Source: a virus
Strand: one strand, 5' to 3'
DNA: 35,567 nucleotides
Virus record (IMG/VR): IMGVR_UViG_3300009159_000166
Coordinates: 1-35,567 of that record
Part shown: positions 8,553 to 10,626 of the stretch, in pieces
Position numbering within the stretch: the first letter of the stretch is position 1
How the letters are laid out: the number at the start of each line of letters is the position of its first letter
The notes under the pieces: generated by a model
What the model saw: the letters and a program-made list of their open reading frames with translations, nothing else
Told to the model about the DNA's origin: nothing
Database searches by the model: none
Position numbers and translations under genes: made by a program

Positions 8553-9368
8553 ATGACACATGGCAGTTTATTTAGCGGCATAGGAGGATTTGACCTTGCG
8601 GCCGAATGGATGGGATGGGATAATGTATTCCATTGCGAATGGAATCCCTTTGGTCAAAAGGTACTTAAACATCATTTTCCAAATTCAATATCATATAATG
8701 ATATCACAAAAACAAATTTCTCTATTCACGAAGGAAGTATTGATATCCTTACAGGAGGATTCCCATGTCAACCATATTCAAATGCCGGAAAGCAACTTGG
8801 CAAATCCGATGAGCGACATCTCTTTCCGGAAATGTTACGCGCAATTAAAGAAATCAAACCGAGATACATTGTGGGCGAGAATGTTCGTGGACTCGTTAGT
8901 TGGGGGGGGGGGTGGTATTCAACGAGGTGTGCGATGATTTGGAAAGGGAAGGGTATGCAGTACAACCGATTCTTATTCCAGCTGCAAGTGTCGGCGCACC
9001 GCACAAAAGAGATAGGATATGGTTTGTTGCTCACTCCAACGACAAAGGAAGATCCGGTGAATTTAGAGAAGTTCAAAAAGAGAATGGAGAAATATCCGAA
9101 CGGAACAACGATGCCAAACTTGGCAACACAAATATTTCAAATGTTACCAACACCATCTGCGAACGAAGACAGTTACAGGCTCAAAGGGGATACTCAAGCG
9201 AGCAAATGTTTGGAGGCAATGGCGAGAACGGGAGGATTAATAAATGGGAAAGCTTCCCAACTGTCTCCCCTATTTGTGGAGGAGATGATGGGCTTCCCAA
9301 AGAATTGGACAACATCACCTTTTCTAAATGGAGAAAAGAATCAATCAAAGCCTACGGAAACGCCATAG
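8553..9368 (+). CDS. dcm: Cytosine-5 DNA methyltransferase, unshifted reading (271 aa)
   Basis: The N-terminal half is a clear m5C methyltransferase: motif I GSLFSGIGGFDLA, motif IV GGFPCQPYSNAG with the catalytic cysteine at about residue 72, and motif VI GENVRGL near 109-115. The frame then enters an 11-G run (8902-8912) at residue 117. As sequenced it continues for about 150 codons as a tail with LLTPTT and MLPTPSA repeats, then QLSPLFVEEMMGFPKNW, and stops with TAG exactly where the other frame encodes the motif X core. This tail looks like authentic family sequence rather than noise, but it lacks motifs VIII and X. Alone it may be inactive or have another role. Confidence 0.8.
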   Translation: MTHGSLFSGIGGFDLAAEWMGWDNVFHCEWNPFGQKVLKHHFPNSISYNDITKTNFSIHEGSIDILTGGFPCQPYSNAGKQLGKSDERHLFPEMLRAIKEIKPRYIVGENVRGLVSWGGGWYSTRCAMIWKGKGMQYNRFLFQLQVSAHRTKEIGYGLLLTPTTKEDPVNLEKFKKRMEKYPNGTTMPNLATQIFQMLPTPSANEDSYRLKGDTQASKCLEAMARTGGLINGKASQLSPLFVEEMMGFPKNWTTSPFLNGEKNQSKPTETP

Positions 9369-9433
9369 TGCCTCAAGTAGCTTATCAAATTTTTAAAGCA
9401 ATATGCAACTCCGAGACTATCAAATCGACATAG
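8553..9433 (+). CDS. dcm: Cytosine-5 DNA methyltransferase, frameshifted full-length reading (293 aa)
   Basis: If the frame slips by -1 at the G tract (or the tract gains one G or loses two), residues 1-120 join a 173-residue second half starting at about 8912. That half has what the unshifted frame lacks: VVFNEVCDDLEREGYAV, the motif VIII-like GAPHKRDRIWFVA, a variable target-recognition stretch, FPTVSPICGGDDGLP, and motif X YGNAIVPQVAYQI. The 293-aa product is a canonical, complete m5C enzyme and would modify phage DNA against host restriction. The end overlaps the helicase start by 31 bases, consistent with natural translation of this frame. Which product is made, and how, is the main open question. 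Confidence 0.75.
8902..8912 (+). repeat. 11-G homopolymer inside the methyltransferase gene
   Basis: Eleven consecutive G in an AT-rich genome, directly after codons for GENVRGLVSW. With 11 G the 271-aa frame is in phase; 12 or 9 G put the 293-aa frame in phase. G runs of this length are classic slipped-strand mutation sites and also allow ribosomal or polymerase slippage. A base-count error in the assembly must be ruled out. Confidence 0.9.
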
Positions 9434-10626
9434 CCAATAGGGGCCTTGAGGTCATTAATGAGTTTGGTTTGGTATATCTTGCCATGCAAGTAAGGACCGG
9501 CAAAACATTAACAAGTTTGCTATTAGCAAACAAATTAAGTGTTGAGCATGTATTATTTGTTACAAAGAAAAAAGCCATCTCGAGCATCCAGGATGATTTT
9601 AAAATGTCCGGTTATGTATATAAATTAGATATTATTAATTTTGAAAGCGTACATAAATGCCAAAATATTTATGATCTTATTATTATTGATGAAGCTCATT
9701 CATTGGGCCAATACCCAATACCAAGTAAAAGGACAAAAGCATTAAAAGAATTATGCAAAGGTAAGCCGGTAATTTATTTAAGTGGCACCCCAACACCGGA
9801 AAGCTTTGCTCAAATATTCCATCAATTTTGGGTATCGGATAAGTCTCCATTTGCAGATCATAAAAACTTTTATTCCTGGCATAAGCATTACGGCATCCCA
9901 AAGAAAAAATTTGTTTTCAATCGTGAGCTTGCTGATTACTCACATGTCAAAACGGAGTTAATTGAATGTGAGATAAATCATTTGTTTTTGACATATACGC
10001 AACAGGAGGCCGGATTTGAATCTTTGGTGCAAGAGGCCATCTTGTATGTGCCAATGAGTGATAAGGTCAAATGGGCCATTGATAAGATTACCAATGACAA
10101 ATTATTTAGGACAAAGGATGGCGAGATAGTGGTGGCAGATACTGCGGTCAAAGAGATGCAAAAGGTCCATCAAATTTGTAGCGGAACGGTTAAAAAGGAT
10201 GATGGCAATGCAATCATATTTGATGATACAAAAGCGAATTTTATTAAGGAAAGGTTTAAGGATCAAAAGATAGCCATCTTTTATAAGTACATAGCCGAGG
10301 GGTTGCTTTTAAAGGCAACTTTTAAAAACTCATATGATGATCCGCAAGAGTTCAATAAGGCCGGCGGCGATGCGGTATTCATAAGCCAGGTGCAAAGCGG
10401 AAGGGAGGGCATAAATTTAAGCACGGCCGATGCGCTTGTCATGTACAATATTGATTTTTCGGCGGTAAGCTATTGGCAATCAAGGGCAAGGATGCAAACC
10501 AAGGACCGGACAATAGCCTCAAAAGTGTTTTGGATATTCACCGTTGGAGGCATTGAGGAGCGTATTTTTAACATGGTCCAAGCTAAAAAAGACTTTACTT
10601 TAAGGCACTTTAAAAAAATATATTAA
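9403..10626 (+). CDS. SF2 DNA helicase (SNF2-like), 407 aa
   Basis: Helicase motifs in order: Q/I region LRDYQIDI, Walker A MQVRTGKTLTS (K34), DEAH box LIIIDEAHS (96-99), motif III LSGTPTPES (127-133), motif V QSGREGINLS and motif VI YWQSRARMQTKDR. The AMQVRTGKT form of motif I is typical of compact phage SNF2-type helicases. It likely remodels recombination or replication intermediates together with the SSB-like protein and the RecB-like and DnaQ-like nucleases encoded upstream. ATG at 9403 overlaps the 3' end of the shifted methyltransferase frame. Confidence 0.92.
   Translation: MQLRDYQIDIANRGLEVINEFGLVYLAMQVRTGKTLTSLLLANKLSVEHVLFVTKKKAISSIQDDFKMSGYVYKLDIINFESVHKCQNIYDLIIIDEAHSLGQYPIPSKRTKALKELCKGKPVIYLSGTPTPESFAQIFHQFWVSDKSPFADHKNFYSWHKHYGIPKKKFVFNRELADYSHVKTELIECEINHLFLTYTQQEAGFESLVQEAILYVPMSDKVKWAIDKITNDKLFRTKDGEIVVADTAVKEMQKVHQICSGTVKKDDGNAIIFDDTKANFIKERFKDQKIAIFYKYIAEGLLLKATFKNSYDDPQEFNKAGGDAVFISQVQSGREGINLSTADALVMYNIDFSAVSYWQSRARMQTKDRTIASKVFWIFTVGGIEERIFNMVQAKKDFTLRHFKKIY

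Follow-up and report, generated by a model that had tools for sequence, protein, structure and literature searches.

A putative gene nested in the +1 frame of phage C5 methyltransferase genes, and a G tract where the frames part in a freshwater clade

A phage gene for a C5 cytosine methyltransferase (MTase) appeared to share most of its length with a second gene in the +1 frame, whose predicted product we designated U-T. In a clade of freshwater phages, the two frames fork at a run of 9–12 G. The best reading of the data, at a probability of about 0.7, is that U-T is nested in the MTase gene and that the G run at the fork acts as a hypermutable on/off switch.

The DNA analysed (the window, 35,567 bases) is an IMG/VR virus contig. 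It encodes primase, exonuclease, helicase, portal, terminase and endolysin, and is therefore from a tailed phage. The features described here are all on the plus strand. The only run of at least eight G or C in the window is a G11 tract at positions 8902–8912, which encodes glycine in every frame.

Upstream of the tract lies the N half of the MTase (8553–8900), which matched PF00145 over residues 2–116 (2.2e-33). It contains motifs I, IV (with the catalytic PCQ) and VI, seen in the sequence as FSGIGG, PCQ and ENV, and its identity across the relatives was 79–100%. The C-terminal part with motifs VIII and X, designated tail C, occupies 8912–9433 with its stop (173 codons, reaching 9430), and overlaps at its end a downstream helicase-like gene (9403–10626; PHROG 62, 1.4e-51). 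Searched separately, tail C also matched PF00145 (2.2e-12), and its identity across the relatives was 33–99%. Because PF00145 matched both halves, N and C are parts of one C5 cytosine MTase. In the window, tail C is read in frame −1 of the N half. In relatives with the tract in frame, such as L006 (PF00145, 1.1e-49), motifs VIII and X follow in the frame of the N half, and this close relative also matched M.HhaI structures at about 1e-21.

The frame that continues from the N half in the window enters a different tail, designated T (8913–9368 with its stop). T contains 151 codons (8913–9365) and is open together with C for about 453 bp. Its TAG stop (9366–9368) falls within the GNAIVP codons of motif X. 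As assembled, the contig thus reads as a fusion of N and T of 271 amino acids (8553–9368). Both proteins would be intact with a tract differing by one base; G11 leaves no in-frame MTase and breaks U-T. A tract one base longer would give a product of 293 amino acids with motifs I to X. A sequence-only reading of this locus had described the G11 tract, the two co-open tails, the −1 tail as the standard MTase ending and the stop inside motif X, and all of these were borne out, as were its coordinates. It had also taken T for an alternative MTase ending, and this was not upheld.

In most relatives, the N half reads on into C, and T sits in the +1 frame. Followed upstream, this +1 frame stays open across the latter part of the N half as far as a conserved ATG. 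This suggested that T is the C-terminal part of a separate nested protein. The N-terminal part, designated U, starts in the window at the ATG at 8698, and in the G11 state its frame is closed just after the tract (8698–8937). In nearly all close relatives, U-T starts about 145 nt into the MTase gene and ends 18–33 codons before the MTase stop. Its length in this set is roughly 175–400 codons, and the U-T proteins of 55 relatives were 41–77% identical to the first of them.

The openness of the second frame was compared with expectation by shuffling synonymous codons of the MTase. For the window gene, about 3.6 stops were expected in T and none was seen (P = 0.006). Among 52 distinct genes, 2–7 stops were expected per gene and none occurred before the T stop, in a set that may carry a search bias from the N-T query with which these first relatives were found. 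A second search, which overlaps the first in contigs, was therefore made with an in-frame MTase only. All 47 distinct genes from this search had a clean U-T frame from an ATG at +142/+145, and in 46 of them it ended 18–33 codons before the MTase stop. The exception was L266, in which T stops early. For comparison, the +2 frame of these genes contained a median of 25 stops. One of the two observations that the sequence-only reading had named as refuting it, an unshifted tail that lacks conservation or is full of stops, was thus not made.

The same was seen within the window. With the tract disregarded, the +1 frame of the MTase is 260 codons long; the mean of the null was 88, and none of 300 shuffles gave a frame as long. 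The +1 frames of 24 other tested genes on the contig were ordinary, and the MTase alone had an abnormally long one.

Synonymous conservation varied along the gene with the position of U-T. The conservation ratio of synonymous codons in the MTase rose from 1.31 ahead of U to 1.46 within U and 1.74 within T, and fell to 1.23 past T. In a column test of synonymous constraint, T differed from the non-overlapping parts at P = 7e-6, and U at P = 0.005. The ratio of third to first codon position changes fell from 3.17 ahead of U to 2.19 within U and 0.99 within T, and was 1.68 past T.

The U-T start was also conserved beyond what the MTase demands. Among 52 genes, the ATG fell in an MTase codon AAT in 45, CAT in 3 and GAT in 1 (49 in all), and the synonymous AAC, CAC and GAC were never found there, while AAC and AAT were used equally overall (599:588). 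In the other three genes, the ATG was one codon upstream.

One might suppose that the +1 frame is a chance reading frame, whose similarity among phages mirrors only the conservation of the MTase. In its favour, no function or fold is on record for U-T, and any overlapping frame necessarily uses the DNA of the MTase. The shuffles, the regional synonymous constraint, the codon-position pattern, the conserved start codon and the ordinary +1 frames of the 24 control genes all contradict this supposition, and we rejected it as scarcely tenable. Although the sequences counted are phylogenetically non-independent, all tests agreed in direction. The comparisons indicate that selection acts at the protein level on two frames of the same DNA, as the sequence-only reading had proposed.

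Some relatives departed from the common form. L031 (from position 1656), on the same contig as L266, was the only close relative with an early T stop (after 82 codons); similarity to T continued past the stop. The tails of eight others (L003, L027, L032, L044, L058, L062, L069 and L071) were far longer than that of the window, and segments of them matched the T query twice. This suggested that the variable middle of the dual-coding region grows in both frames at once.

Searched separately, T matched PHROG 1008 (2.9e-12), and so did all 55 aligned U-T proteins. This family is labelled 'DNA methyltransferase', yet neither T nor U-T contained an MTase motif (VIII and X were looked for in T), and T had no Pfam family above the cutoff. 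U-T gave no usable match in Pfam, NCBIfam, PADLOC or PDB. AlphaFold models of U-T from 55 and 99 sequences were of low confidence (pLDDT 48.7 and 59.4) and gave no hint of function; a viral fold search with U-T returned best matches of only TM 0.23 or less.

These results bear on the idea that the tract selects between two functional MTases, N-C and N-T, differing in specificity or activity. N-T is open and was present at 10 of 48 tract junctions. Against it, T lacks motifs VIII and X and any Pfam match, its usual partner is U rather than N, and N is kept with C in all the tract-less relatives. We consider two alternative enzymes very improbable, and rejected T as a second MTase C-terminus. 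Of the suggestion that tract length is a chooser, one part stood: the length decides which halves are fused. A choice between two enzymes was not supported.

U-T may be translated independently from the conserved internal ATG. Shine-Dalgarno-like motifs preceded several U-T starts in hosts that use them, an observation made with no null comparison. A scan for an internal promoter of the sigma-70 type found no more than chance.

Slippage of transcription or translation on the G tract might instead allow a single DNA state to yield both the MTase and the fusions. A long homopolymer placed exactly at the fork of two long open frames fits such a process. On the other hand, most relatives hold both frames without a tract, and U-T has its own start, so that slippage is not needed to make U-T. 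We regard it as quite unlikely.

The sole functional clue was that U-T was not found without an MTase. On this ground, U-T might assist or modulate the MTase or host restriction, a working guess that we offer with low confidence.

When GTDB genomes were scanned with the alignment of U-T, 80 loci were obtained, all with U-T in the +1 frame of an MTase. The search itself partly accounts for the openness of the frame in these loci, but not for its constant +1 position. The loci were mainly in Bacteroidota, and also in metagenome-assembled genomes labelled Bacillota, Phycisphaerales, Burkholderiaceae and others.

Of 249 Bacillota genomes sampled, 4 contained PHROG 1008, and of 249 Pseudomonadota genomes, 15 did. 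Apart from two weak matches, all were in the +1 frame of an MTase. The two, L244 and L245, were examined as candidates for PHROG 1008 away from an MTase, and neither showed the pair. At L244 (2e-4), an MTase was present and the U-T profile did not match. At L245 (E 4e-4), which has four internal TGA codons, neither profile matched, and it was taken as a chance match.

Two further loci resembled N-T fusions and were rejected. In L152, the frame was disrupted near an A9 run. In L153 (2110–2620), an assembly gap of N lay in the MTase gene, with sequence repeated on both sides. Separately, in a Hoylesella shahii contig (L214, 3150–3380), the MTase frame stopped at the motif X region and the remainder of motif X was in another frame.

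The pair was also present in cultured coliphages, including Kagunaviruses, and 224 annotated phage records matched the coliphage form alone. Laboratory phages of E. coli K-12 with the pair include BASEL Bas70, Bas72, Bas73 and Bas74. In cultured Kagunaviruses, the nested ORF was sometimes annotated as 'Mte8-like', mostly not at all. In most pairs of Kagunavirus MTase genes, the first and third codon positions differed about equally often, as expected for dual coding. The Mte8-like ORF (K1ind2 ADA82427.1; K1G ADA82276.1) resembles U-T in its nested position within a phage C5 MTase gene, its +1 frame and its motif order. Unlike the window, it has no G tract at the fork, and it starts earlier in the MTase gene. 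The papers searched did not describe it as a conserved overlap.

The gene annotated as 'DNA methyltransferase' in Klebsiella phage VLCpiM12a (ON602758.1, UVX31561.1; L346, 350–1225) is the U-T frame. The real MTase frame of this phage, one base upstream, is unannotated. This suggested that the label of PHROG 1008 was probably inherited from the overlapping MTase.

At the fork, the junctions of the relatives contained either short G runs (2–6) or 9–12 G, and none had 7 or 8. The long tract was seen in the freshwater phage clade, and most relatives kept both frames without it. No tract was found at the fork of the prophage loci checked.

The state of the tract was classified at 48 tract junctions, all with lengths taken from metagenome assemblies, where homopolymers can be miscounted. 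N-C and U-T were both in frame in 35 (73%), N-T was formed in 10 (the window included), and U-C with N closed in three. After removal of near-identical copies, counted by hand, 31 of 41 were in frame (P = 4e-8 against one third). From this excess, selection appears to keep the two-protein state of the tract. Phages 95–97% identical to each other differed in tract state, again in metagenome assemblies only. Three off-frame sequences recurred as identical copies in two records each, which may be re-assemblies. For this contig, the G11 of the window could be an assembly error.

In the preferred reading, two intact proteins would normally be encoded, the MTase (N and C) beginning at its own start codon and U-T at the internal one. 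The crossing point of the frames would have become a run of 9–12 G in the freshwater clade, a slip-prone homopolymer at the position that decides the frame, as in a contingency locus. A tract that keeps the frame would leave both proteins intact, and a change of one or two bases would exchange the tails or close a frame. The off states would be N-T with U closed, as in the window, or U-C with N closed. We infer that tract length changes reversibly within populations and that the off states switch the MTase and U-T off together.

The strongest competitor accepts dual coding and sees the G tract as a mere by-product: glycine favoured at the fork in both frames would force G after G, and the G11 of the window would be a deleterious slip, a minority variant or an assembly error, with no adaptive switch. 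The tract encodes glycine in every frame, and its commonest form (10 G plus AT) is one Asn-to-Gly codon change from the tract-less form TGG AAC GGG GGA T, which suggested that the tract may have arisen with no selection for switching. In-frame tracts were also far commoner than one in three, and the lengths come solely from metagenome assemblies. The jump in length from at most 6 to 9–12, the different states of nearly identical phages and the recurrence of off-frame sequences, possible re-assemblies as noted, argue against a by-product. We put this explanation somewhat short of an even chance.

A further variant of the switch would make N-T and U-C functional fusions, so that the tract has three states and a single slip silences the MTase and its partner together and makes a third protein. 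We consider it unlikely; if true, phage populations would gain ready variants against host restriction.

Parts of this picture have precedents. In Helicobacter canadensis, variation in the length of poly-G tracts alters the C-terminus of proteins, i.e. C-terminal phase variation (PMC2823697). As in the window, an intragenic poly-G tract sets the C-terminus by its length. Those tracts lie near the 3' end and mostly change only a few residues (PMC2823697), whereas here the long tails of two overlapping genes are involved. Lambda Rz1 inside Rz is a fully nested phage gene (named in PMC9409062), and the two pairs are alike in that one gene lies wholly within another on the same strand. In contrast to Rz, what encloses U-T is a DNA methyltransferase gene, and the two occur together in phages and prophages from several bacterial phyla.

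Gene overlap, contingency loci based on homopolymers and C-terminal phase variation are already known, and so is the nested ORF, which some Kagunavirus records annotate and on which PHROG 1008 is based. Two features appear to be new: that the dual-coding pair is conserved, and that a tract lies at its fork. The open-licence literature searched contained no account of the conserved overlap, of a gene nested in an MTase across phyla, or of a poly-G fork acting on both genes.

The nested frame covers most of a textbook enzyme gene, and few of its copies are annotated, the rest being missed or labelled as methyltransferase. The annotation of hundreds of phage genomes would change. The finding draws attention to an uncharacterised companion protein of a DNA methyltransferase, and since the pair is carried by cultured E. 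coli phages, its expression and function are directly testable. At the G-tract fork, a single contingency tract would affect two overlapping genes simultaneously, a rare arrangement.
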